From the NCBI GenBank assembly GCA_029245065.1, contig JAQWQB010000009.1, positions 1 through 37,808 of the forward strand: 37,808 nucleotides of DNA, read 5' to 3'. The notes beneath the pieces were generated by a model. It searched no databases, had not been told where the DNA came from, and saw only the letters and a list, made by a program, of their open reading frames with translations. Numbering within the stretch: the first letter of the stretch is position 1; every line of letters starts with the position of its first letter. Made by a program: the position numbers and the translations under genes. This DNA is from Flavobacteriales bacterium (lineage in GTDB: Bacteria > Bacteroidota > Bacteroidia > Flavobacteriales_D > Sanyastnellaceae). Shown piece after piece: positions 21,467 through 35,014 of this stretch.

Positions 21467-24400
21467 TTGAAGTTGAGCTTTCGTTGTATTCTGACCGCTT
21501 TGGTCTTATGTGTCTTCACCCCTCAATTGACCGCTCAGTATTACTGGACGGGCGTTGAAGGAGAGTGGGGCAACCCTGCTATGTGGTCATCAGAACCAAA
21601 TGGAACAGGTGGTTTTGGCGTTCCCGGAATGGAAGATGACGTTATTTTTAACACGAGTTTTTCGACAGTAACCATTCAGAATTCCGCTTTCTGCAACAAC
21701 TTGATTGTCCAAAATGGTGTTTCTGGCGCTTTTTCTGGAAATCTTTTGAGTGTTCATGGAGACGTTGTAATTCAGGGCGAAATAGCTACAGAAATCAATC
21801 GCATTTCTTTTGACGGAGGTACCGTTCAATCTGCTGACATCAACCCTGAAATCGATTGCGATGTTTTCATCACGAACAATTCAACCTTGGCACTTCAACA
21901 CCGCTTGTTGCTACCTCGGAATACCATTCAAATTGTCCAAGGGCACTTAGACGCCACCGGACGAGCGATTGTTTGTGACGCATTTCTAGCTTCAAATAGC
22001 CACACACACCTTGCACTGAACGGCAGTAAAATAGTTGTTGAAACGTCTCTTGATGTTCAGCCTTCTGTATCTGTTGATCAATTAGACGACACGGTTTACC
22101 CTTGCGAAGGAAGCACCATCAATGAAGGGGCTTTACTGGTTAATTGGGGTAGAGATAACACTTGCGGAAACGGCCCAGGGCAAACACCATTCACCGTTAC
22201 CACCACAATCATTACGGATTACAACGGAGAAGATGTTTCATGCAACGACGCGGAAGACGGCGAAGCTTTTGCTGGAGTCATAGGCGGCGTTGGACCATTC
22301 TCATACACCTGGGTTGGAGGCCCGAATACACCCAACTACCCAGGAATTGGCGCTGGAACATACACCGTACTTGTAGAAGATTTAGGACAGGGAATTGTTT
22401 GCGTAGATAATGTTCAGCTGACAGAGCCAGCGCCTTTAACCGTGTTTAATTTTACGTATGACCCGCCATCTTGTGCAGGAGAGTGCAACGGATCAGGGTC
22501 ACCAATTGTTATTGGAGGAGTTAGTCCATACGATTTTGACTGGGGGAACGGCGAAACGAATCAGTTCGCAACAATGCTGTGCGAAGGACTCAATTCCCTT
22601 GAAATTATTGACCAGAACGGGTGCGTTTTTGACACCTCTTTCACCGTAGAGCTTGATCAGATTTTCGTAAACCTGGACATCACAGATGTGCTTTGCAACG
22701 GTACACCAACAGGCGCGGCTACGTCAACACCAACAGGTGGCGACGGCGGCCCCTATACGATTTCGTGGTCAACATCAGATAATGGACCAACAGTTACTGG
22801 CCTGCCAGCTGATACCTATGTGGTTACAGTAGAAGACGGTTCTGGCTGTTCGGTAGATAGTACATTTATCGTTTCGGAAGAGCCGCCGGTAGTGATCGCC
22901 TTAGACGATGTTACTGACCCACTTTGCGCTGATTCCAACGATGGAGCCATTGATATTTCTGTTTCAGGTGGAACGCCAACATACCTATTTGATTGGGTAG
23001 GGCCGAATGGTTTCGTGTCTGACCAAGAAGACATTTCAGGACTGGAAGCAGGCGATTATGATATTACAGTAACAGACGATAATGGTTGCCAAACAACGAC
23101 CAGCATAACACTTACAGGCCCACCAGCAATTGTGGCGAATGAAACCATAACAGACGTGCTCTGCTTTGGTGAGTTCACAGGTTCAATTTCTATTGACATA
23201 TCAGGAGGAACAGCCGGTTACGATACAGATTGGACAGGCCCAAATGGTTTTGTTTCCGTTCAGGAAGACATTTCAGGTTTGGAGGCCGGCGATTACACGG
23301 TGGTCATTACCGACGCCATTGACTGCGAAGCTACATTCACCTATACGGTAGATGAACCAGAAGAAATAGTGGTTACCCCTACCATCACACCTATTTCATG
23401 TAATGGGGTGAGCGATGGAGAAATAGAAATCACCATTTCAGGCGGAACGCCAGATTACACCATTGAATGGACAGGCCCGAATGGCTTTACTTCAGATCAA
23501 TTGCTTATTTCGAACCTAGAGGAAGGAGATTACAACCTTACCGTGACAGATGACGCAGGATGTGAAGTAACGGAGTTGTACACGCTTGATAATCCGGCTC
23601 CAATTGAAATTACAATTGATCTTGCGCCTATATCATGTGAGGGTGCAGCAGACGCATCTGCAGATATTACCGTTACAGGGGGCACACCAGATTATACATT
23701 TGAATGGACAGGCCCGAATGGCTTTACTTCAAATCAAGAAGATATTTCAGGGTTGGACGAAGGCGTTTACAACTTGGTTGTAACTGACGATGCAGGTTGC
23801 ACATTGCCTGCTTCATTAGCGGTCTCCAATCCAGACCCAATTGTAGCCGTTCTTGTGCCAACAGACGTTAGTTGCGGTGGCTCAGATGATGGGTCAATTG
23901 AGTTGAGCATTTTAGGCGGACAACCAGGTTACCAAACAGATTGGATTGGGCCAAATGGGTTTACTTCTGACCAAGAAGACCTTTCAGGACTAATTGCCGG
24001 AGATTACACCGTAACCATCACTGATATTGCGGGTTGCGAAATTGAGGAAACGATTACCATTAACGAGCTTCCTCCTTTAGAACTCGTATTCGATGTAACC
24101 CCTATTTCATGCAATGGGGCGAATGATGGAGCAATTGACCTGACCATCACAGGTGGGCAACCACAGTATGTGATCGGTTGGGCAGGCCCGAACCTATTTA
24201 TTACTGAAGACGAAGACATTTTTGACCTCGAACCAGGCTTTTACAACGTATTGGTGATTGATGTCAACGACTGTTTCATTGAAGGTTTTGTGGAAATCAC
24301 AGAACCAGACCCGATTGATGTTACCGTTGATTCCTCGGACCCAACTTGCTTCGATTCGAATGATGGAACCATCACATTGACCATTTCGGGAGGGGTTGAC

Positions 24401-27400
24401 CCCATTACTGTTTCATGGGACAGTGGCGACAATGGAGCAGCATTAACAGACTTACCGGCAGGTGATTACATTCCGACCATCACGGATGATTCAGGTTGTG
24501 AAGTGGTACTACCAGCCATCACACTTACTGCTCCAGAAGAAATTATCATCACCACAGATGAAACGCCAATCCTTTGTGGCGGAGAAGCTACCGGAGCTAT
24601 CGACATGGAATTCACGGGTGGCCAAGGTACCGTTCAAATTGCTTGGACCGGGCCAAATGGATTTACCTCTGACCAGGAAGACATTGCTGATCTGGAAGCA
24701 GGAACCTATGATCTTGTTTTAACAGACGAAGCAGGATGCCAAGCATTCGCAACGGTTGATATATTGGAGCCACTTCCGCTCGATGTTCAGAGCGTGATTG
24801 CACCGCTTAATTGTGCCGATGATTTAGGAAGCATTGAATTGACGATCTCGGGCGGTACAACAGACTATACGGTTGCCTGGACAGGCCCAAACGGGTTTAT
24901 TTCTGATCAAGCGATTATCATCAACCTGGAACAAGGCACCTACGACTTAGTGGTCACGGACGCACTAGATTGCGAGTATACAGAGACATTTGATTTAGTA
25001 GCTCCAGACCCACTAGAGGTAACAAGCGATGTTACTGATTTGCAATGTGGAAGCGGCCCTATTGGAGCTGTGGACCTGACGATCACAGGAGGCACATTGG
25101 ATTACACCATTCTTTGGACAGGCCCAGGTGGCTTTTCTTCGAACGCAGAGGACATTACAGACCTGGGAGAAGGCACTTACGATGTCAGTGTAACAGATGC
25201 AGGAGGTTGTGAAGTTCTTTTGAGTTTCGAGTTTATTCAACCAGAAGAATTAGACATAGAAGTTACTACTGTTGAGCCGGCCTGTTTTGGTGAAAACACG
25301 GGAAGCATCTCAATTGTGATTACCGGAGGTGTTGATCCGTATGACGTTATCTGGACAGGCCCAAATGGTTTCTCATCAACCGCAACGGACATTACAAACC
25401 TTGTTGCTGGTAGTTATGACCTCGGTGTTACCGACGCGGGAACATGTGCATCTTCGCTCACGATTGACCTGGATGAACCAGAAGAGCTAAATGTAGTTGC
25501 TGATATAACGGATATTATTTGTGGGGGCGCCAACTCTGGCGCTATTGACATCACCATCGAAGGGGGCCAAGGTCCGTTTGATGTGGTGTGGTCAGCACCT
25601 GGTTTCAACGCGCTTACGGAAGATATTTTCGACCTAGAAGCTGGTTCTTACACGTTAGACATTCTTGATAACAATGGGTGTTCGTTTACTGCATCTTATG
25701 ATGTGAGTGAAACAGTGCCAATTGACATCACATTGGATACGGCAGATTCTTCTTGCAACGAGTCAAATGGAAGTGCTTCCGTTACAACTACAGGAGGACT
25801 TGATCCAGTGACCATCACCTGGTACGACGAAGATTTCTTTGAAATAGGAACAGGACTTTCAATTGCTGATTTGCCAGCAGGAACGTATGTGGTAGAGGCA
25901 ACAGATGGCAACGACTGCGTGATGGGTGAGACCTTCAGTATTTCTGATTCAGACGCTATTCAGTTGGAGGCAGATGCCACTGACCCGCTTTGTGCAGGAG
26001 ACACCAACGGAACCATTGACTTAACCCTCACAGGAGGAACAGGAACCATTACCATTGCCTGGTCTGGACCTGATGGCTTTGTCTCAGACCAAGAAGATCT
26101 TGCTGATTTACAGGCAGGAATATACAGTGTTGAAGCGACTGATGAAGCAGGCTGTATTGCTGCTTTAACCGTGGAACTGCTTGAGCCAGAAACACTAGAT
26201 GTTCAAGCGTTGATCACTGGAATAGCTTGTGGCACATCTGGCACAGGAGCAATAGAATTGGACATTGCAGGAGGTACAGGCAATATCATCGTTGATTGGG
26301 TAGGGCCGAATTCGTTTACGTCTAATGCTGAAGATATTTTCGACCTAGAAGCCGGAGACTATACAGTACTGGTAACAGATGAAAGTTTGTGCACTTTCAC
26401 GACTACTTACGAAGTACCCGAACTAACCTCTGTGGAAGTTGAATTCGTTCTTACACAAATTGAATGCAATGGTGCGAATGACGGTGCCATTTCAACAACA
26501 GTAACATCTGGAACCCCTGCATTTGACTTTCTATGGACAGGCCCAGATGGCTTTTCTAGTGTGAATGCAGACCTTGCACTTTTAGCACCAGGTGATTACA
26601 CGTTGACCATCACCGACGACAACGATTGTACTGTTGAAGAGACGGTAACCATTACCGAGAACCCCGCTTTGGAACTTGAAGTTATTGAAGCAGCGCCGGC
26701 TTGTAATGCAGCAGATGGAGCGCTAGAAGCTGTGGTAACAGGCGGAACAGTTGGTGGTGATTACACCTACTTCTGGTACGACCTAGACAACGGAAACACA
26801 CTCATAGGAACCGATGCGATTATTGAAGATCTGCCTGCCGGTCAGTATTTTGTAGAGGTATTTGATGACTTGGGGTGCCTAATTAGCGCTCAAGTACCAC
26901 TGGCGAATAACGTTGGTGAAATCACAGCTGTTCTTTCTGATCCGCTATGCTTTAGCGATTTCAACGGTGTGATTGATGCTACAATTACCGGTGCGACTGA
27001 CCCGCTGACAATTTCATGGACAGGGCCAAACGGATTTGCTTCTGACCAAGAAGACATTGCAGACTTGGAAGGCGGTGAATACATCATTGAAGTGTTGGAT
27101 GGAGCAGGTTGTATTTTGACAGAAACATTCACACTAGTAGCTCCTGAAGAACTCATATTGACCACCGTTGGTGGAGATCTACTGTGCGCAACGCAAGCTG
27201 CAGGAACAGTAATTGCCACCATTGAAGGAGGTACAGAAGACTATACGATTGCATGGGTTGGTCCGAATGGCTTTACCTCAGAGGAACAAAATTTAAGTGA
27301 CCTTTTACCAGGTTGTTACGATTTGCAAGTAACAGATGCCAACGCCTGTTTGGCGATTTCTCAAGCGTGCATTGATGCTCCAGATAGTATTCAAGTGGAC

Positions 27401-29089
27401 GCGATTCCTACGAATATTGCTTGCTTCGGAGAATTGACAGGTTCTATTGAAATCGAAACCGAAGGAGGAGTAGGAGGCTTTACGTACGACTGGAGTGGAC
27501 CGAACGAGTTCGCTTCGGACGATGAAGACATCTTTGACTTGGCCGCAGGAGCGTACGATTTGATTATTACGGATGCGAACTTCTGCGAGTTAGACACCTT
27601 CTTTATCATTTCGCAAAACCCGCAAGTTATTGCGGTAGCCGACACCATTTTACCATCGTGTCCAGGATTCGATGATGGACAAATTTCACTGACCATTTCA
27701 GGGGGTCAAGGCCCTTACACACCGAACTGGTTTGAGGGCGGAATTCAGTTTGAAACAGGAGAAGTGGCAACCAACCTTGATGCTGGAACCTACGAAGTAC
27801 AAATTCAAGACGCATTTGGCTGCCTTGTAGTTCAAGAATATGAATTGGTTGACCCTATTCCTTTCGAAATTGACAGCGTTGTGACACCAATTGCTTGTTT
27901 TGGCGAAGGAAACGGATCAATTGAAATTGACGTTTCTGGCGGAACAGGTGATTTAACAACGTTATGGGTGGGTCCGAACGGATACACATCGGCCAATGAA
28001 GACATTTTCGACCTAGAAGCAGGTAGTTACGAGTTGACATTAGGAGATGAACTTGGTTGTACAATGACCTTTGACTTTACCATTGTTGAGCCAGAAGCGA
28101 TAGATGTAAGCATTGAGAACCTCATTAATGCATCTTGTTTGACATCAGAAGATGGAAGCATCCTGATCAATATTCAAGGCGGGGTTGAGCCGTATGAGTT
28201 TGCATGGTCTGGGCCAGATGGTTTTACTTTCGACCAAGAAGACCTGATAGATGCCCCAACAGGAACCTACGACTTACTTATTACAGACGACTTTGGTTGT
28301 ACGTTTGAATTGACTTCAATTCCACTTGGGTTCAATGGAAACGTAGAAGCAGATGCTGGCCCTGATGTGGAACAGTTTGATGGTATTGCACTAGAGGTAA
28401 TTGGAACGCAGACAGGCGGAACAACGGAGTTTTGGTCAGACTTAGATGGCGAGCAAGTGGATCCAGATGGTACACTTTCAGTAGAACTAGAGCCGGGTGA
28501 ATACACCTTCGTTTACAACGCGGTTGATGGTCCTTGTTTCGACACAGATACCATTAACGTGACCATTTTCGCCCTGCCTGAAGTAGATGCAGGTGAAGAC
28601 CAAGACGTTTACTTTGAAGAGCAGGTTGTTATTGGCGGAAGCCCAACGACCGATGTTGAGAATGTATTCACATGGACTCCTTCTGAATTGCTAGTGAATG
28701 ATGAGGTATTGAACCCTCAAACGGTCGAAGTAACCGCTGACACCTGGTATTTTATTGAAGTGGTGGACATCAACGGCTGCGTTGCCCAAGACTCTGTGTT
28801 CATTAGCTTAATCCCGCAATTGGATGTGGTGTCTGGCTTCACACCGAACGGTGATGGTATGAACGATTTCTGGGACATTGGCAACACCGGTTTTTATCCG
28901 ACATTGGTAGTTTCCATCTACAACCGATGGGGTGATTTACTCTTTCAGGATGGAAATGGGTATGCACAACCTTGGGACGGAACCTACAATGGAACTCAAT
29001 TGCCTATTGGCACGTACTACTATGTAATTGATATTGATGAGCCTGAGTTTAAGGCCACAATGAACGGACCAGTTACCATACTGAGATGA
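21467..29089 (+). CDS. Giant SprB-like repeat adhesin with T9SS type B sorting domain
   Basis: A 2540-residue exported protein. It starts at a TTG (21467), since no ATG in frame precedes the signal peptide LSFRCILTALVLCVFTPQL, which ends in TAQ. Residues about 25-240 form a beta-helix-like head (YYWTGVEGEWGNPAMWSS). Residues about 241-2290 hold about 26 tandem SprB-type repeats of about 78 residues. Most share a first Cys (as in ISCNG), a GG turn, GPNGFTSDQEDI, L-x-AG-x-Y and a second Cys near D-x-x-GC. Two non-repeat Ig-like segments follow, and then the type B sorting domain (FTPNGDGMNDFWD, YNRWGDLLF, IGTYYYVID). SprB is the mobile gliding adhesin of flavobacteria; adhesion or gliding is the likely role. 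Its stop overlaps the next porP/sprF gene by 4 bases. Confidence 0.9.
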   Translation: MKLSFRCILTALVLCVFTPQLTAQYYWTGVEGEWGNPAMWSSEPNGTGGFGVPGMEDDVIFNTSFSTVTIQNSAFCNNLIVQNGVSGAFSGNLLSVHGDVVIQGEIATEINRISFDGGTVQSADINPEIDCDVFITNNSTLALQHRLLLPRNTIQIVQGHLDATGRAIVCDAFLASNSHTHLALNGSKIVVETSLDVQPSVSVDQLDDTVYPCEGSTINEGALLVNWGRDNTCGNGPGQTPFTVTTTIITDYNGEDVSCNDAEDGEAFAGVIGGVGPFSYTWVGGPNTPNYPGIGAGTYTVLVEDLGQGIVCVDNVQLTEPAPLTVFNFTYDPPSCAGECNGSGSPIVIGGVSPYDFDWGNGETNQFATMLCEGLNSLEIIDQNGCVFDTSFTVELDQIFVNLDITDVLCNGTPTGAATSTPTGGDGGPYTISWSTSDNGPTVTGLPADTYVVTVEDGSGCSVDSTFIVSEEPPVVIALDDVTDPLCADSNDGAIDISVSGGTPTYLFDWVGPNGFVSDQEDISGLEAGDYDITVTDDNGCQTTTSITLTGPPAIVANETITDVLCFGEFTGSISIDISGGTAGYDTDWTGPNGFVSVQEDISGLEAGDYTVVITDAIDCEATFTYTVDEPEEIVVTPTITPISCNGVSDGEIEITISGGTPDYTIEWTGPNGFTSDQLLISNLEEGDYNLTVTDDAGCEVTELYTLDNPAPIEITIDLAPISCEGAADASADITVTGGTPDYTFEWTGPNGFTSNQEDISGLDEGVYNLVVTDDAGCTLPASLAVSNPDPIVAVLVPTDVSCGGSDDGSIELSILGGQPGYQTDWIGPNGFTSDQEDLSGLIAGDYTVTITDIAGCEIEETITINELPPLELVFDVTPISCNGANDGAIDLTITGGQPQYVIGWAGPNLFITEDEDIFDLEPGFYNVLVIDVNDCFIEGFVEITEPDPIDVTVDSSDPTCFDSNDGTITLTISGGVDPITVSWDSGDNGAALTDLPAGDYIPTITDDSGCEVVLPAITLTAPEEIIITTDETPILCGGEATGAIDMEFTGGQGTVQIAWTGPNGFTSDQEDIADLEAGTYDLVLTDEAGCQAFATVDILEPLPLDVQSVIAPLNCADDLGSIELTISGGTTDYTVAWTGPNGFISDQAIIINLEQGTYDLVVTDALDCEYTETFDLVAPDPLEVTSDVTDLQCGSGPIGAVDLTITGGTLDYTILWTGPGGFSSNAEDITDLGEGTYDVSVTDAGGCEVLLSFEFIQPEELDIEVTTVEPACFGENTGSISIVITGGVDPYDVIWTGPNGFSSTATDITNLVAGSYDLGVTDAGTCASSLTIDLDEPEELNVVADITDIICGGANSGAIDITIEGGQGPFDVVWSAPGFNALTEDIFDLEAGSYTLDILDNNGCSFTASYDVSETVPIDITLDTADSSCNESNGSASVTTTGGLDPVTITWYDEDFFEIGTGLSIADLPAGTYVVEATDGNDCVMGETFSISDSDAIQLEADATDPLCAGDTNGTIDLTLTGGTGTITIAWSGPDGFVSDQEDLADLQAGIYSVEATDEAGCIAALTVELLEPETLDVQALITGIACGTSGTGAIELDIAGGTGNIIVDWVGPNSFTSNAEDIFDLEAGDYTVLVTDESLCTFTTTYEVPELTSVEVEFVLTQIECNGANDGAISTTVTSGTPAFDFLWTGPDGFSSVNADLALLAPGDYTLTITDDNDCTVEETVTITENPALELEVIEAAPACNAADGALEAVVTGGTVGGDYTYFWYDLDNGNTLIGTDAIIEDLPAGQYFVEVFDDLGCLISAQVPLANNVGEITAVLSDPLCFSDFNGVIDATITGATDPLTISWTGPNGFASDQEDIADLEGGEYIIEVLDGAGCILTETFTLVAPEELILTTVGGDLLCATQAAGTVIATIEGGTEDYTIAWVGPNGFTSEEQNLSDLLPGCYDLQVTDANACLAISQACIDAPDSIQVDAIPTNIACFGELTGSIEIETEGGVGGFTYDWSGPNEFASDDEDIFDLAAGAYDLIITDANFCELDTFFIISQNPQVIAVADTILPSCPGFDDGQISLTISGGQGPYTPNWFEGGIQFETGEVATNLDAGTYEVQIQDAFGCLVVQEYELVDPIPFEIDSVVTPIACFGEGNGSIEIDVSGGTGDLTTLWVGPNGYTSANEDIFDLEAGSYELTLGDELGCTMTFDFTIVEPEAIDVSIENLINASCLTSEDGSILINIQGGVEPYEFAWSGPDGFTFDQEDLIDAPTGTYDLLITDDFGCTFELTSIPLGFNGNVEADAGPDVEQFDGIALEVIGTQTGGTTEFWSDLDGEQVDPDGTLSVELEPGEYTFVYNAVDGPCFDTDTINVTIFALPEVDAGEDQDVYFEEQVVIGGSPTTDVENVFTWTPSELLVNDEVLNPQTVEVTADTWYFIEVVDINGCVAQDSVFISLIPQLDVVSGFTPNGDGMNDFWDIGNTGFYPTLVVSIYNRWGDLLFQDGNGYAQPWDGTYNGTQLPIGTYYYVIDIDEPEFKATMNGPVTILR
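22190..28340 (+). repeat. About 26 tandem SprB-type coding repeats of about 235 bp
   Basis: About 26 in-frame units, mostly 76-81 codons, with diverged sequence. The best preserved segments encode GPNGFTSDQED. Units 6 and 7 (around 23440-23500 and 23680-23740) are close in DNA, sharing aatggacaggcccgaatggc, so they look like a recent duplication. The units at about 25620, 26330 and 28005 share the stretch attttcgacctagaagc. The first three units and units 10, 16, 20 and 24 lack the GPNGF signature. Confidence 0.88.
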
Positions 29090-29982
29090 AGCAGTTTTTG
29101 GCCTACATATCGTTTTGTTTGTTCTTCCTAGGGGGAATGAACTTGCACGCCCAACAGCTTCCTCAAATTAGCATGTTCCAAGACAACTACTACGTGTTGA
29201 ACCCGGCATATGGAGGGTCTCAACAAGAGTTTCAGGTATATGGGATGAACCGGACACAGTGGACGGGCATAACAGATGCTCCCCGAACGTTCGCCCTATC
29301 CCTTCAAGGACAACTTAAAAACCCTCACATCGGAGTTGGCGGACATTTGTTTACGGATAACGTTGGTCCGACGAGAAGAACAGGCCTTCAACTTTCGTAC
29401 ACGTGGCACTTTTTTATCAATGAAGACATCAAGTTGGGCTTGGGGCTTTCCGGAGGCATGCTGCAATTTGCCATTGATGGAACGAAAATTTCTCTGAAGG
29501 AAGAAGGAGACCCAGCGTTGTATTCTGAGCTTCGTTCACAAACGGTTTTTGACGCCACTTTTGGAGCTTATATGCGTTCTGACGAATGGTGGGTTGGGGT
29601 AACGTTGCCACAATTACTACAAAATCAAATTCGTTTGTACGATACCGTTGAACAGGCCACTAACCGATTGGAAGATCACTACATGGTTGCCGGGGGGTAT
29701 AAATACGAGCTGAATTCTGATTTCACAATCGAACCAGCCATCCTCATTAAGTATGTGAAGCCAACCCCATTAAAGTGGGAGCTGAGCGCTCGTTGTACTT
29801 ATTTGGATATGTTGTGGTTGGGGGCTTCATTCAGAAGCAACGATGCCGCCGTCATCATGGCAGGATATGAATACCGAAAAGCAATCAGCATCGGTTACGC
29901 CTATGACTTGACAACATCCACGTTGCGAGATCACACCACAGGAACCCATGAAATCTTAGTTGGTTTCCGATTTAATCAATAA
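29086..29982 (+). CDS. PorP/SprF family type IX secretion outer-membrane protein (second copy)
   Basis: A 298-residue beta-barrel protein with a signal peptide ending GGMNLHAQQ. The family hallmark near residue 25 reads QISMFQDNYYVLNPAYGGSQ, followed by WTGITDAPRTFALSLQG. The end strand is GTHEILVGFRF. It overlaps the stop of the giant adhesin by ATGA, so it is co-translated and very likely its dedicated partner, as SprF is for SprB. It is clearly related to the first copy at 20454 but well diverged; the two would not be expected to recombine readily. Confidence 0.93.
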   Translation: MKQFLAYISFCLFFLGGMNLHAQQLPQISMFQDNYYVLNPAYGGSQQEFQVYGMNRTQWTGITDAPRTFALSLQGQLKNPHIGVGGHLFTDNVGPTRRTGLQLSYTWHFFINEDIKLGLGLSGGMLQFAIDGTKISLKEEGDPALYSELRSQTVFDATFGAYMRSDEWWVGVTLPQLLQNQIRLYDTVEQATNRLEDHYMVAGGYKYELNSDFTIEPAILIKYVKPTPLKWELSARCTYLDMLWLGASFRSNDAAVIMAGYEYRKAISIGYAYDLTTSTLRDHTTGTHEILVGFRFNQ

Positions 29983-30459: not shown

Positions 30460-31932
30460 ATGAAAAACCTGCAACGCATTTTTATGACCCTAGCGCTCAT
30501 GCTTGGGGTGGTGTCTCTTCAGGCACAAGGCAACGACTGCGATTGCCCAGAACCAACAGAGGAAGACATAGTCTGTGTAGACCTAGGAGGAGAAATCCTC
30601 GCTTTTCCAAGTGCATGCCTGGCAGAATGCATTGGATTTGAAGTAGTAGAAGGAGACTGTACGATTGAAGATTGGGATGACCAAGGAGATTGGGAAGATG
30701 AAGAATGGGACAATGAAATTGAGTGTGACTGCGAAGAGCCAACCGAAGAGGATGTGGTTTGCGTTGAAACACCGTTTGGAATTGAGCCTTTCCCAAGTGC
30801 TTGTATCGCTGCGTGTTTCGGACTAGAAGTAGTGGACGGAGACTGTGATTTTATTGATTGGGATGATCAAGGAGATTGGGGTGACGAAGGAGAGTATGAT
30901 TGTGACTGTCCTGAGCCAACAGAAGAAGACATGGTATGTGTTGAGTCTGGTTTCGGTATCGTCCCTTTCCCAAGTGCATGTTTAGCTGAATGCTGCGGAT
31001 TAGAGGTGGTAGAAGGTGATTGCGCTATGGAAGATTGGGAAGACTACGAAGACGAGTGGGAAGACGATGATTACGATTATGGAAATGATTGTGATTGCGA
31101 AGAACCAACCGAAGATGACATTGTTTGCATCGAAACGGATTTCGGAGTAGTAGCTTTCCCAAGTGCGTGTTTGGCTGAGTGCTTCGGTTTCGAAGTAGTT
31201 GAAGGAGACTGTACAATTGAAGATTGGGAAGATCAAGGAGATTGGGGTGACGAATACGATGATGATTATGGCGTTGACTGTGACTGCGAAGAGCCAACAG
31301 AAGACGACGTAGTATGTGTTGACACTGGCTTTGAAATTCTTCCTTTCCCAAGTGCATGTATCGCAGAGTGTCTAGGACTCGAAGTAGTAGACGGAGATTG
31401 TGATTTCGGTGATTGGGATGACCAAGGTGACTGGGATGACCAAGGTGACTGGGATGATGAAGACATAGACGACATCTTTGATTGCGATTGCGAAGAGCCA
31501 ACAGAAGAAGACATGGTATGTGTTGACACTGGCTTTGAAATTCTTCCTTTCCCAAGTGCATGTCTAGCAGAGTGCTTCGGACTAGAAGTAGTAGAAGGTG
31601 GATGTGACGAGTTCGATGACGGGTCTGAATTCCCAATGGTAGCTATTGAAGAAGCAAGCTATGAAGAAGGACAACTTATCGGAATTGAAGTTTTCCCGAA
31701 CCCAGCGAACGAATTAGTATCCATTACAATTGAAGCGAATGGTGAAGGTGCTGCAAGCCTTCAGATCTACTCAATTACAGGTCAACTAATGATTGATGAG
31801 CAGGTAGGCATTGCTAGCGGAACACAACGTTCTCAAGTGAGCTTAACTGAGCTTCCTGCAGGAACTTACCTAGTGAAGGTAACGGACTCGAAAGGAAACC
31901 AACAGAATGAAACGTTAGTGAAAACGAAGTGA
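30460..31932 (+). CDS. Secreted protein with six Kazal-like domains, acidic Trp-rich linkers and T9SS type A sorting domain
   Basis: A 490-residue exported protein with a signal peptide ending VVSLQAQ. It carries six tandem units, each with six cysteines in the order C-x-C-x9-C-x13-C-x3-C-x9-C (as in CDCPEPTEEDIVC, FPSACLAEC, EVVEGDC). The spacing and the final C-x-A-x-C-x-G-x-x-V-x-x-G-x-C resemble non-classical Kazal protease-inhibitor domains, although the usual G-x-DG-x-TY is missing. Repeat 3 has a seventh Cys (AECCGLEV). The units are joined by linkers of Asp, Glu, Trp and Gly such as DWDDQGDWEDEEW. Residues about 410-490 (VFPNPANELVSI, LPAGTYLVKV) are a type A sorting domain. It directly precedes the sigma-factor operon. 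The inhibitor role is an inference; metal binding or a structural role are alternatives. Confidence 0.78.
   Translation: MKNLQRIFMTLALMLGVVSLQAQGNDCDCPEPTEEDIVCVDLGGEILAFPSACLAECIGFEVVEGDCTIEDWDDQGDWEDEEWDNEIECDCEEPTEEDVVCVETPFGIEPFPSACIAACFGLEVVDGDCDFIDWDDQGDWGDEGEYDCDCPEPTEEDMVCVESGFGIVPFPSACLAECCGLEVVEGDCAMEDWEDYEDEWEDDDYDYGNDCDCEEPTEDDIVCIETDFGVVAFPSACLAECFGFEVVEGDCTIEDWEDQGDWGDEYDDDYGVDCDCEEPTEDDVVCVDTGFEILPFPSACIAECLGLEVVDGDCDFGDWDDQGDWDDQGDWDDEDIDDIFDCDCEEPTEEDMVCVDTGFEILPFPSACLAECFGLEVVEGGCDEFDDGSEFPMVAIEEASYEEGQLIGIEVFPNPANELVSITIEANGEGAASLQIYSITGQLMIDEQVGIASGTQRSQVSLTELPAGTYLVKVTDSKGNQQNETLVKTK
30538..31605 (+). repeat. Six tandem Kazal-like coding units of about 177-204 bp
   Basis: The first Cys codon of each unit lies at 30538, 30724, 30901, 31090, 31279 and 31483. 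The spacings are 186, 177, 189, 189 and 204 bases, all multiples of three. The cysteine cores are strongly conserved, while the acidic linkers vary in length. Confidence 0.9.
31411..31464 (+). repeat. 18-bp tandem repeat inside the fifth acidic linker
   Basis: Three consecutive 18-base units, the first two nearly identical (GAxTGGGATGACCAAGGT) and the third diverged. They encode DWDDQG repeats, and this explains the longer linker of unit 5. Confidence 0.85.
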
Positions 31933-31948
31933 TATTTGTATAGTTACT

Positions 31949-31979
31949 GAGTCTGTCGGTTTAATTAGCCGGCGGGCTC
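31949..31979 (+). terminator. Strong hairpin between the Kazal-like gene and the sigma-factor operon
   Basis: An 11-bp stem (arms 31949-31959 and 31969-31979, with three G:U pairs) around a 9-base loop, followed by ATTACTTTCTT. It lies 16 bases after the Kazal-gene stop and 14 bases before the TTG start of the sigma factor. It could be a leaky terminator that sets the ratio between the two units, or it could occlude the sigma-factor start. Confidence 0.55.
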
Positions 31980-31993
31980 ATTACTTTCTTACA

Positions 31994-32572
31994 TTGGAGC
32001 CAAACCAGGACGAGATACTAAAGGGCTGCCTCAAGCGGAATCGCAAGGCGCAATACATTTTTTACAAGATGTACTTTCCCTACCTGTTCTCAATTTGCCT
32101 CCGCTACACCAATGACCGTGATGAAGCAATGTCGGTACTGAACCTTTCTTTTGCACGCATCATGATGAACCTTAAAAAGTACGACTCCTCACAGCCATTG
32201 AAAACATGGATTAGAAGAGTTACACTGAACTGTATTATTGACGAATTTCGGAAGACAAAATCGTACAAGGAGCACCTTCAATTGGGCAACGATGCTAAAA
32301 TGGACAATGCGTCTTTAGCAAATGACCACCAGACCATCGGAAGCAACTTAGCTGAAGTGGTACAAACGAAATTGAAAAAGCTTTCTCCAGTTACCAGAAG
32401 CGTATTTAATTTGTACGCGGTAGACGGTTACAAGCACAGAGAAATAGCAGAAATGTTAAACATCTCAGAAGGAACTTCAGCTTGGCACTATAGCGAAGCG
32501 AAAAAAGCGATAAGAGAGTTTTTGGAACCAGAATTCAAACACCTAGTGAAGAATGGAAGAGCATCAGCATAA
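31994..32572 (+). CDS. ECF-type RNA polymerase sigma factor
   Basis: A 192-residue sigma-70 family protein with region 2 at about residues 18-85 (AQYIFYKMYFPYLFSICLRYT, PLKTWIRRVTLNCIIDEFRK) and region 4 at about 120-180 (LSPVTRSVFNLYAVDGYKHR, EIAEMLNISEGTSAWHY). There is no region 1 or 3, as expected for ECF factors. The start codon is a TTG at 31994; no upstream ATG is in frame, and the next in-frame ATG would remove half of region 2. The next gene starts 20 bases inside its end, as in many sigma/anti-sigma pairs. It probably directs transcription of envelope or surface genes; the Kazal-like gene just upstream is a candidate target, by inference. Confidence 0.88.
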   Translation: MEPNQDEILKGCLKRNRKAQYIFYKMYFPYLFSICLRYTNDRDEAMSVLNLSFARIMMNLKKYDSSQPLKTWIRRVTLNCIIDEFRKTKSYKEHLQLGNDAKMDNASLANDHQTIGSNLAEVVQTKLKKLSPVTRSVFNLYAVDGYKHREIAEMLNISEGTSAWHYSEAKKAIREFLEPEFKHLVKNGRASA

Positions 32573-33920
32573 CGAGCCCTTCAAGGAGGAATATTGGCAA
32601 GACGCCCTTGGGGTGCTTGAGCAAGAAGAGCGCAAAGCGCGAAGAAAGAAGGTAGTGCCTTTGTTCTTCAGCATCGCGGCACTCATTCTTGTTGTTTTTG
32701 CCGTTCGTTACTATGTGAGCCCAACATCTGTGGAACGCGCTTCAACCGGCACCATCCAAGGACCGCAAACCAATAGAACTGTAGACGGTCAAACGAACAA
32801 CACTTCAACGAACGAAACAGCGGCGGAAACTACGCAGCCTAATGACACCGCTGCACCGGCCAACAGCCGCTACTCAGACAATTCGGAAGTAGAGAATACC
32901 AGAGCCGTTACACCAGAGAATGATCAATTAACCCCAGAAGAGCAAGCGGTAGATGAAGCATTGACCGCTGATGACAATAGCACTAAGCAAGACAACGAGG
33001 AAACAAGCAGAACGGAAGAACAAAACGACAACCTAGAAGCATTGGAAACTGCTGACAACGATTCAGCAAATACGGAAGAAGAGTACCCTCAGGACCAGTT
33101 GGACCCAGCTGATGTTGAAGACACGGTAGACCATACGCCAGGCGGAGACCCACTAGAGAGTATCTTGAACCAAACCTCTCCAGAATTGCCAGCCATTTCG
33201 ACTATTCAACCGGGCTTTGGGTTCGCAAATGCCGCCATCAAACCGGTAGTTCCTGCTCGTTTAGCAACAAGTGAAGGGAAGATTTTCAGCCTCCATTTTG
33301 AAGACAAACACAGAGAATTCCTTCGCCTTCCAACAATGTCGACCCCAATTACCCTATTTGTTGGGAACGCATTTGCTCCTGGCTACGGTTCACGAAAAGC
33401 AAGCCATTGGAACCCACAAGCAGGAATTGCATTGGAGCACCGAGTTGAAAACAACTTGTGGTTCAGAGTTTCAGTTGGCGGACAACAAATTTCGCAGACG
33501 TTTGCATCTAAGAGCTACCTAGAAGAGCAAGCGAGTTTCGGATATGAAGCGCTTGAAACACGTATTTCAACAGATAGGCTTTACCTCTTGGATGTTCCTG
33601 TTGGCCTGGTATGGGACGCCTTCATGAGACATTCCTTTATTGTAGGTGGTGGTATTGAGGCCATTGTGCGAACAGAAAACACCCTTGAAAAGAATAAAAT
33701 CGATGCGTTCGGCACAGAAAACATTGATTCAGAGTCATCGTACGGTTACTTAACCGGTTACAACCCGATTATGTATAACCTGAACATTGGCTATAGGTAC
33801 AAATTTTCGAAACGAAACTCATTGGACATTGTTGCGTCTACCGGTTTTCACGAAGTCAACCAAATTGGAACCTCCAAGAATGGTCGAATTTCAGTTCGAT
33901 ATAATTTCCAAATCAAATGA
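32553..33920 (+). CDS. Putative transenvelope anti-sigma protein: inner-membrane helix plus outer-membrane beta-barrel
   Basis: A 455-residue protein with an unusual layout. Residues 1-33 are charged and cytoplasmic in character (KEEYWQDALGVLEQEERKARR). One membrane helix lies at about 34-54 (VVPLFFSIAALILVVFAVRYY). Residues about 57-200 are a low-complexity Asn/Thr/Glu/Asp/Gln linker. Residues about 240-455 show alternating strands with aromatic ends (LWFRVSVGGQQISQTF, LYLLDVPVGLVWDAF, MYNLNIGYRYKFSKRN, ISVRYNFQIK) like PorT-type outer-membrane barrels. The gene overlaps the sigma-factor gene by 20 bases, which points to an anti-sigma role for the short N-terminus. No classical anti-sigma domain is recognisable. 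It overlaps the next gene by ATGA. Confidence 0.72.
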   Translation: MEEHQHNEPFKEEYWQDALGVLEQEERKARRKKVVPLFFSIAALILVVFAVRYYVSPTSVERASTGTIQGPQTNRTVDGQTNNTSTNETAAETTQPNDTAAPANSRYSDNSEVENTRAVTPENDQLTPEEQAVDEALTADDNSTKQDNEETSRTEEQNDNLEALETADNDSANTEEEYPQDQLDPADVEDTVDHTPGGDPLESILNQTSPELPAISTIQPGFGFANAAIKPVVPARLATSEGKIFSLHFEDKHREFLRLPTMSTPITLFVGNAFAPGYGSRKASHWNPQAGIALEHRVENNLWFRVSVGGQQISQTFASKSYLEEQASFGYEALETRISTDRLYLLDVPVGLVWDAFMRHSFIVGGGIEAIVRTENTLEKNKIDAFGTENIDSESSYGYLTGYNPIMYNLNIGYRYKFSKRNSLDIVASTGFHEVNQIGTSKNGRISVRYNFQIK

Positions 33921-35014
33921 GAAAGGTCCTTTTATTTTCGATCAGTTTGGTCTTGTTCGGCTGCGTGAAGCCCGAACCTGAAGAAGTGGTTTCCCTTCCA
34001 TCTCATTTTTCCCTTGAAGGAACCTTGAATGGAGAAGCGTTTAATATGACGCCGGGAGAAAACGGATTTTACTTGTTTACAGATTTGGCTGACCACAATC
34101 AAGGACGTGTAGATTTTTCGGCAACGTCTGCTCATTTGACAGATGATTTGGCGCATTGGATTTCCTTCGAGCTGATTATGGATGGAGATGAAGATGACTT
34201 CTCTGAAGACCTTATTGATGACATTGAAGAAGGGGAGTTGGCGATAGGGATGGAGCCGTTGGAGGAATATGACGTGGTTCTTTATTCTGATAATGATTTT
34301 ACCTTTTGGTCACTAGATGACGAAGTTGTAGGAGAGGGAAATGAGTTCGAATTCGGGTCTTTGAACACGGAAACGATTACGTGCTCTACGCTTGATTGCT
34401 TGAATGAAATTGGAATATTTCCGACAAACGTTATTGATTGCACATCTAGCCCTACGTTTAATGTCATTAACATTGAGCAACTCGAAAATGGATTATTTGC
34501 GTTGTATCCACCAGAAACGAACAACGAAATGGATTTCTTGGCTTGGGATGTGAATGGTGAGACTTACAACACTTTTGGAAACGAACCTCTCTTGGTAGAG
34601 GCGCCAGGCTCGGGAGTCTTAGATGTTCTGCTATTGGGGGGGGGGGTACAAAGCAACCCGTATTTTGTTGTGCAATCTTTTGTTGGTTTCATTGGTGATT
34701 GCTCATTTCCATGGATTGAATCAGGTATTATCTCTGAGGAAGAACCAATCATGCGCGTTACGTATTACAATGGAAACGGGCAGCTTTACACGTCAGAACT
34801 TATGTGTGACCCGGATGTTGATCAGCTGAACGACGCGTTCTTCGAAGTGCTTTCAATGGAAGATTTTAGCGCGAATGAAAACGGCTTGCCAACAAAGAAA
34901 ATGACTTTTTCGACCAAATTATTGCTGAAGACAGACCTCGGAAACCCGTTTGGCGAAATCTTGGAGTTGGAAATTGAAGAAGGTTCTGTCGCATTTCCGT
35001 ACCATACAGACTAG
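33917..35014 (+). CDS. Uncharacterised lipoprotein with an 11-G tract
   Basis: A 365-residue protein with a lipoprotein signal (MRKVLLFSISLVLFGC, Cys16). I do not recognise the family. It is acidic (ESLxDD-type stretches such as DGDEDDFSEDLIDDIEEGE), beta-rich, and contains four cysteines beyond the lipobox (CSTLDCL, VIDCTS, GDCSF, LMCD). The start overlaps the stop of the barrel gene by 4 bases, so it belongs to the sigma-factor operon. At 34636-34646 there are eleven consecutive G bases encoding LGGGV at about residue 240. Loss or gain of one G would change the frame and end translation at 34829 or 34698 respectively. It ends 3 bp from the convergent acyltransferase gene. Confidence 0.7.
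   Translation: MRKVLLFSISLVLFGCVKPEPEEVVSLPSHFSLEGTLNGEAFNMTPGENGFYLFTDLADHNQGRVDFSATSAHLTDDLAHWISFELIMDGDEDDFSEDLIDDIEEGELAIGMEPLEEYDVVLYSDNDFTFWSLDDEVVGEGNEFEFGSLNTETITCSTLDCLNEIGIFPTNVIDCTSSPTFNVINIEQLENGLFALYPPETNNEMDFLAWDVNGETYNTFGNEPLLVEAPGSGVLDVLLLGGGVQSNPYFVVQSFVGFIGDCSFPWIESGIISEEEPIMRVTYYNGNGQLYTSELMCDPDVDQLNDAFFEVLSMEDFSANENGLPTKKMTFSTKLLLKTDLGNPFGEILELEIEEGSVAFPYHTD
34636..34646. repeat. Homopolymeric G11 tract in the lipoprotein gene
   Basis: Eleven G residues in a row within a coding region that otherwise shows no such runs; the next longest G run I noticed in the window has seven (9413-9419). Such tracts are typical of slipped-strand phase variation. They are also prone to sequencing error, so the length should be verified. 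Confidence 0.9.

Follow-up and report, generated by a model that had tools for sequence, protein, structure and literature searches.

A predicted dual-membrane anti-sigma factor of the Dma/Reo kind, with a putative PKD lipoprotein partner, in a Flavobacteriales bacterium

Introduction

Control of a sigma factor by one protein chain that is anchored in both membranes has already been published: the design is known from Dma1 to Dma3 of Bacteroides thetaiotaomicron and also goes by the name Reo, the partner of EcfO. In Dma2 of B. thetaiotaomicron, which is encoded beside an ECF21 sigma factor, a long disordered tether connects the N-terminal anti-sigma domain and a transmembrane (TM) helix to a C-terminal beta-barrel; the Bacteroides dma2 locus has a third gene, which codes for a protein of unknown function (PMC13088901). 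Dma1 was the first of a class that is confined to Bacteroidota (PMC13088901), and deletion of dma1 or dma2 gives rise to vesiculation phenotypes that act via the cognate sigma factor (Pardue 2026, PMC13088901). The anti-sigma factor Reo of Phocaeicola vulgatus was described in 2022 as crossing the periplasm and carrying an outer-membrane barrel, and its regulon is induced by loss of the anti-sigma factor or by attack of a toxin on the envelope (PMC9308784). In 2026, Reo was reported to extend from the cytoplasm to the surface, with outer-membrane stress as the proposed signal (PMC13114119). Since class I anti-sigma domains are found beside only 6% of the Bacteroidetes ECF sigma factors (PMC7406223), Dma-type proteins may explain a large part of the ECF regulation that is otherwise missing.

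Here, we analyzed a stretch of 37,808 nucleotides of a Flavobacteriales bacterium (contig JAQWQB010000009.1, positions 1 to 37,808, forward strand), referred to as the window. An initial annotation of this DNA had proposed that one of its genes encodes an unusually direct signaling device connecting both membranes. This reading indeed matches the published Bacteroides homologs (PMC13088901, PMC9308784, PMC13114119), but its novelty is much lower than was assumed, the design being known.

Results and Discussion

Layout of the gene product

The features of the locus are listed in Table 1. The open reading frame in question starts with ATG, and the 19-residue segment of highest hydrophobicity in its product begins at residue 33. 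AlphaFold2, run with an alignment of 36 homologs, modeled a single helix, a disordered stretch from about residue 57 to 259, and, from residue 266 to 452, nothing but strands, with pLDDT values mostly between 80 and 97. The proposal of a single chain with an inner-membrane helix and a C-terminal outer-membrane barrel was thus borne out by hydropathy, the AlphaFold2 model, and the barrel fold matches described below. A short, charged cytoplasmic N terminus had also been proposed and was recovered as a charged, Trp-containing region of about 33 residues ahead of the helix. This segment is shortened by some 12 residues in front of the Trp, both in the window protein and in the four relatives closest to it, and stays below the length that most relatives have.

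Table 1. Features of the window around the predicted anti-sigma gene
Feature	Position	Strand	Evidence
Gene for Kazal-like Cys repeats and T9SS tail, upstream neighbor	30460..31932	+	Por_Secre_tail E 8.5e-12
Hairpin with T-rich tail between upstream gene and sigma gene	31948..31980	+	Consensus scan
ECF sigma factor, 192 aa, regions 2 and 4, predicted cognate partner	31994..32572	+	Pfam, NCBIfam, sigma clade
Overlap of sigma 3' end with anti-sigma start, 20 bp	32553..32572	+	Sequence
Predicted dual-membrane (Dma/Reo-type) anti-sigma factor, 455 aa	32553..33920	+	ORF, homologs, AlphaFold2, VIA-align, hhalign
Residues 1-33, predicted cytoplasmic sigma-binding segment, FKEEYW motif	32553..32651	+	Pre-TM Trp, wide-family profile
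Residues 34-54, predicted inner-membrane helix	32652..32714	+	Hydropathy 2.57 (mean); AlphaFold2 helix 12-54
Residues 55-260, acidic disordered periplasmic linker (predicted)	32715..33332	+	pLDDT <50; net charge -30
Residues 261-455, predicted OmpA/OmpX-class outer-membrane beta-barrel	33333..33917	+	AlphaFold2, VIA-align, Pfam in homologs
Predicted lipoprotein, 365 aa, third operon gene, PKD/Ig-like middle	33917..35014	+	Lipobox-like LFGC, family alignment, AlphaFold2

The linker had been put at about 140 residues, which was too short: by pLDDT and composition, it comprises about 205 residues of low complexity, 76% of which are D, E, N, T, S, Q, P, A, or G. A disordered chain has a contour length of about 0.35 nm per residue, and the periplasm is 20 to 30 nm wide. 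Linkers of 40 homologs have 107 to 308 residues (median, 176) and, at this length per residue, would therefore be long enough to cross the periplasm, as had been assumed. An open reading frame pattern arising by chance does not explain this arrangement, judging from the sequences of 12 family loci, in which a related sigma factor is followed by a homolog with its parts in this order.

The C-terminal barrel

The strands of the model are located at residues 266-274, 287-299, 302-314, 319-327, 331-355, 360-384, 387-397, 406-417, 422-431, and 442-452, and the majority have pLDDT values of >90. Foldseek returned OmpA, Ail, OmpX, and their relatives as top matches for the barrel model. In VIA-align, OprF (Z 16.1), OmpA (Z 15.6), and OmpW (Z 15.1) as well as PagL and NspA made up the matches with a Z score of 15 to 16, and the soluble barrel of PsbO scored lower (Z 9.8 to 10.7). 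Hydrophobic and polar residues alternate in the barrel-wall strands 287-299, 302-314, 406-417, and 442-452; for example, the even positions read PAILHV in the strand 287-299 and IYLIYY in the strand 406-417. The C-terminal part is nearly neutral in charge and contains 13% aromatic residues. A sequence search of the PDB gave no match, and under Pfam the barrel by itself reached only 17.9 bits (cutoff, 27). Since this single-sequence result is merely suggestive, the barrel was assessed by homologs and structure, and in fact OMP_b-brl_2 was found in 24 and OMP_b-brl in 12 of the 36 aligned homologs. On iteration, the barrel HMM strayed into the TM helix and linker; its counts were discarded, and barrel counts were taken from the unextended HMM.

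A soluble periplasmic fold in place of the barrel would have spoken against the original proposal. Because the AlphaFold2 model, the fold matches from Foldseek and VIA-align, the strand alternation, and the Pfam matches of the homologs all point to a membrane-type barrel, we predict that the C terminus is an OmpA-type outer-membrane barrel. It is somewhat smaller than first estimated, with about 195 residues starting at about residue 261 rather than about 215.

The ECF sigma partner

The gene in front of the predicted anti-sigma gene encodes an ECF sigma factor, as indicated by Pfam (Sigma70_r2, E 7.7e-10; Sigma70_r4_2, E 4.6e-12) and NCBIfam (sigma70-ECF, 74 bits; cutoff, 43); the model of Bacteroidetes FecI-like sigma factors, TIGR02985, was not reached (81 bits; cutoff, 126). 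An overlap with a sigma factor gene had been noted before and was confirmed; judging from the sequence, it couples the two genes, which are separate, unfused open reading frames in different frames. In a phylogenetic tree, the window sigma factor, the Dma partners, and related sigma factors form a clade of 34 rows with a support of 99/96, which leaves out most other ECF sigma factors of the window genome. Within this clade, the Bacteroidaceae Dma sigma factors make up a separate subclade (96/96), and the window sigma factor is found in another branch. As regards membership in ECF group 21, the tree shows the window sigma factor to be related to Das-type sigma factors.

Relatives across Bacteroidota

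A search of 60 genomes (the window's own and those of its family and order) gave matches in 11, all within the family, and wherever the flanking sequence was long enough, the gene order at the family loci is sigma factor, TM-linker-barrel protein, lipoprotein. A scan of named genomes seeded with the sigma factor returned 80 loci from Flavobacteriales, Saprospiraceae, Cytophagales, Sphingobacteriales (Pedobacter, Mucilaginibacter), Bacteroidales, and one Rhodohalobacter. The following counts refer to the 79 loci at which a downstream gene was identified. A TM helix within the first 110 residues is present in 76 of the 79 downstream proteins, and a Trp occurs among the 45 residues preceding this helix in 74 of these 76 (about 32% would be expected from the background frequency of Trp). 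The genes for sigma and anti-sigma factor overlap in 58/79 loci. Single-chain sigma control across the envelope would hence not be peculiar to gut Bacteroides but spread over much of Bacteroidota. At two Saprospiraceae loci (L051 and L074), the open reading frame downstream of the sigma gene codes for 1681 to 1688 aa and reaches the end of the locus; it begins with the usual Trp-TM arrangement, and its C-terminal part resembles neither the barrel nor PKD and, by eye, is perhaps alpha-2-macroglobulin-like.

Relation to Dma, Reo, and other anti-sigma systems

Bacteroidaceae-like Dma loci were located via DUF4943, the family reported beside dma2. These loci contain a sigma factor, a TM-barrel protein of 351 to 356 aa, and a DUF4943 protein in the order published for dma2, and when one of them was used to seed a family search, Dma1-like and fused Dma3-like members were recovered as well; the naming of the recovered loci as Dma1, Dma2, or Dma3 type rests on neighborhood and architecture. 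In the family of the genome with a Dma2-type locus (G130), three loci (L117, L121, and L128) have single open reading frames of 550 to 573 aa with a sigma domain and a match to the Dma barrel, i.e., Dma3-type fusions. The barrels of the window family were aligned with those of the Bacteroidaceae Dma proteins by hhalign with probabilities of 98.3% (alignment A1 against A5; E 2e-14) and 99.2% (A4 against A5; E 2e-19), which indicates that the barrels are homologous. For the cytoplasmic segments, the wide-family profile matched the Bacteroides Dma N termini with a probability of 84%, and the close family of 12 sequences, in which the segment is shortened, gave only 1.4% alone; the cytoplasmic domain is probably homologous to that of Dma.

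The window protein and Dma of B. thetaiotaomicron have in common one TM helix, a long disordered tether, the C-terminal barrel, the adjacent ECF sigma factor, and probably the N-terminal segment, and a third operon gene is present both here and at dma2. They differ in several respects: the window comes from Flavobacteriales and its sigma factor from another branch of the common clade, the cytoplasmic segment is shortened, and the third gene encodes a predicted PKD lipoprotein, whereas that of dma2 encodes a DUF4943 protein. The window system is thus a sister lineage of the same kind, in another branch of the phylum and with a different, predicted lipoprotein partner. Orthology to Dma1 or Dma2 was rejected because the window sigma factor lies outside the Bacteroidaceae subclade and DUF4943 is absent from the window genome, and identity with Dma3 was rejected because sigma and anti-sigma factor are not fused.

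EcfO-Reo of Bacteroides fragilis and Phocaeicola vulgatus is similar in having a predicted cytoplasm-to-surface anti-sigma factor with a C-terminal barrel, encoded downstream of an ECF sigma factor. There, a regulon of NigD lipoproteins and changes in LPS are known, whereas no nigD neighbor was identified at the window locus. With FecI-FecR, the window system would share an outer-membrane barrel whose signal crosses the periplasm to reach an anti-sigma factor of the inner membrane and an ECF sigma factor, but barrel and anti-sigma factor are separate proteins in FecR systems. Neither a FecR nor a secretin/TonB domain was found with Pfam and the TIGR02985 score is low, so a FecR-type anti-sigma factor was rejected. 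Anti-sigma factors of class I such as RseA and RsiW are likewise single-pass proteins of the inner membrane that sequester an ECF sigma factor; unlike these, the window protein has no class I anti-sigma domain and no Hx3Cx2C zinc motif, and its cytoplasmic part has only about 33 aa.

The third gene of the operon

The third gene overlaps the anti-sigma gene by 4 bp. Its product has a lipoprotein-like signal that ends with LFGC and gave no match in Pfam, but PKD was detected in 2 of 10 relatives, and PKD-like repeats are seen in the family consensus. A fold search with the model returned only Ig/FnIII-like matches for residues 181 to 260 with Z scores of <8, which are not diagnostic. Since the window genome contains no DUF4943, the third gene does not belong to the family found beside dma2. 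Lipoproteins of this family, which have about 370 aa, were found as third gene (E ≤ 1e-4) in most barrel-type loci throughout the phylum, and in some relatives a third gene was not recognizable. The predicted trans-envelope anti-sigma factors thus often share an operon with an uncharacterized PKD lipoprotein.

Proposed mechanism and alternatives

We consider it quite likely that the product of the window gene is a Dma/Reo-type anti-sigma factor spanning the envelope, by which the sigma factor would be held and then freed when the outer membrane changes. The parts, their order, the coupling of the genes, and the homology to proteins that act through their cognate sigma factor are established by sequence or prediction. 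The Trp segment at the N terminus would bind the sigma factor and keep it inactive at the inner membrane as long as the barrel is properly inserted in the outer membrane; the single helix would be an uncleaved anchor in the inner membrane, and the linker would cross the periplasm. Failed or displaced assembly of the barrel, attack on the surface, or a signal via a lipoprotein docked on the barrel might then expose or pull the linker or the anchor, and proteolysis or a conformational change would free the sigma factor. The latter would transcribe its regulon, probably including its own operon and perhaps the neighboring gene for a T9SS-exported protein. Points that weigh against this reading are the shortened N-terminal segment, the low profile probability of the close family on its own, and the Pfam score of the window barrel under the cutoff.

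If the hydrophobic segment were a cleaved signal peptide, the protein would be an ordinary outer-membrane protein that happens to be encoded beside a sigma gene, and the barrel alone is indeed an ordinary outer-membrane protein fold. This is very improbable, since the charged, Trp-containing region of about 33 residues before the helix is conserved beside the sigma gene throughout the phylum and is also common to anti-sigma factors without a barrel; furthermore, a disordered spacer of 200 residues would be pointless in a secreted outer-membrane protein. Just as little is to be expected of a soluble periplasmic or never-inserting barrel, which would make the protein a conventional inner-membrane anti-sigma factor with a periplasmic sensor. 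Soluble PsbO barrels do match the model, but at lower Z scores than the true outer-membrane barrels, and the alternating strands as well as the outer-membrane protein families found by Pfam in the homologs argue against it.

A further alternative keeps the dual-membrane anti-sigma factor but takes the barrel mainly as a fixed anchor, the real sensor being the PKD lipoprotein, which would report a surface ligand or contact and not outer-membrane stress. That the lipoprotein is conserved as third gene at the majority of barrel-type loci in the phylum is in line with this, as are its PKD/Ig-like domains, which are common in ligand-binding surface proteins, and the third gene of Bacteroides dma2, also coding for a protein of unknown function (PMC13088901). 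However, relatives that appear to lack the third gene speak against a lipoprotein as the sensor, and we regard this explanation as unlikely, though not negligible.

Paralogs with PKD and T9SS domains

The window genome has 20 matches to sigma region 2, and in addition to the window's own, six (L132, L133, L135, L137, L139, and L148) have a TM protein encoded behind them whose N terminus is laid out similarly. Two of these TM proteins (L149:1336-2811 and L152:1142-2683) have strand-rich C termini that look barrel-like and gave no strong match in Pfam or NCBIfam. Two others, L150:4865-5983 (-) on contig C81 and L151:1108-2409 (+) on contig C97, have the Trp segment and the TM helix followed not by a barrel but by PKD and T9SS type B/CHU_C domains. 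L150 matched TIGR04131 with 38.6 bits (cutoff, 35) and CHU_C with 36.2 bits (cutoff, 27); L151 has a clear PKD domain, and its CHU_C match stayed under the cutoff. Nearly every genome searched contains homologs of L150 and L151, with full-length matches in most family members, although many of the listed matches concern other proteins with PKD/CHU_C regions. In 28/28 loci of the L150/L151 type examined (relatives L154 to L181), the gene immediately upstream encodes a sigma factor. TIGR04131 was found in 11 of 14 L150-type proteins, and among the L151-type proteins PKD was present in 14/14 and CHU_C in 6/14. The cytoplasmic segments of both types matched the wide profile of the window family with 95 to 97%.

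From these data, we tentatively, and with considerable doubt, suggest one trans-envelope chassis in Bacteroidota, consisting of the sigma-binding segment with its Trp motif, the inner-membrane helix, and the long linker, with interchangeable ends: either its own barrel, as in the window, or, as in paralogs of the window genome and throughout the order, PKD plus a T9SS CHU_C/type B domain that would report the status of secretion or of the surface directly to the sigma factor. A C terminus of the CHU_C type would, on a chassis of this kind, be delivered through the T9SS or docked on it. Alternatively, the C termini of the L150/L151 type could be degenerate domains retained in the periplasm. No description of anti-sigma factors with T9SS sorting domains was found in the open-access literature searched, an absence that is no proof. 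The paralogs suggest a second wiring of the cell surface to transcription and are the part most worth following.

Upstream region

The four closest relatives (G004, G011, G031, and G025; loci L002, L182, L183, and L184) also have, directly before the sigma gene, a gene similar to the upstream neighbor with its Kazal-like repeats and T9SS tail, and it is possible that the gene is coregulated or a member of the regulon. The hairpin between this gene and the sigma gene is possibly a terminator or attenuator; sites of this type are no more common than in shuffled sequence. Farther upstream, the window codes for a very large, adhesin-like repeat protein of 2540 aa with a gliding-motility-type C terminus (21467-29982), followed by a gene for PorP/SprF (Pfam E 2.1e-73), a typical pair of T9SS type B cargo and partner.
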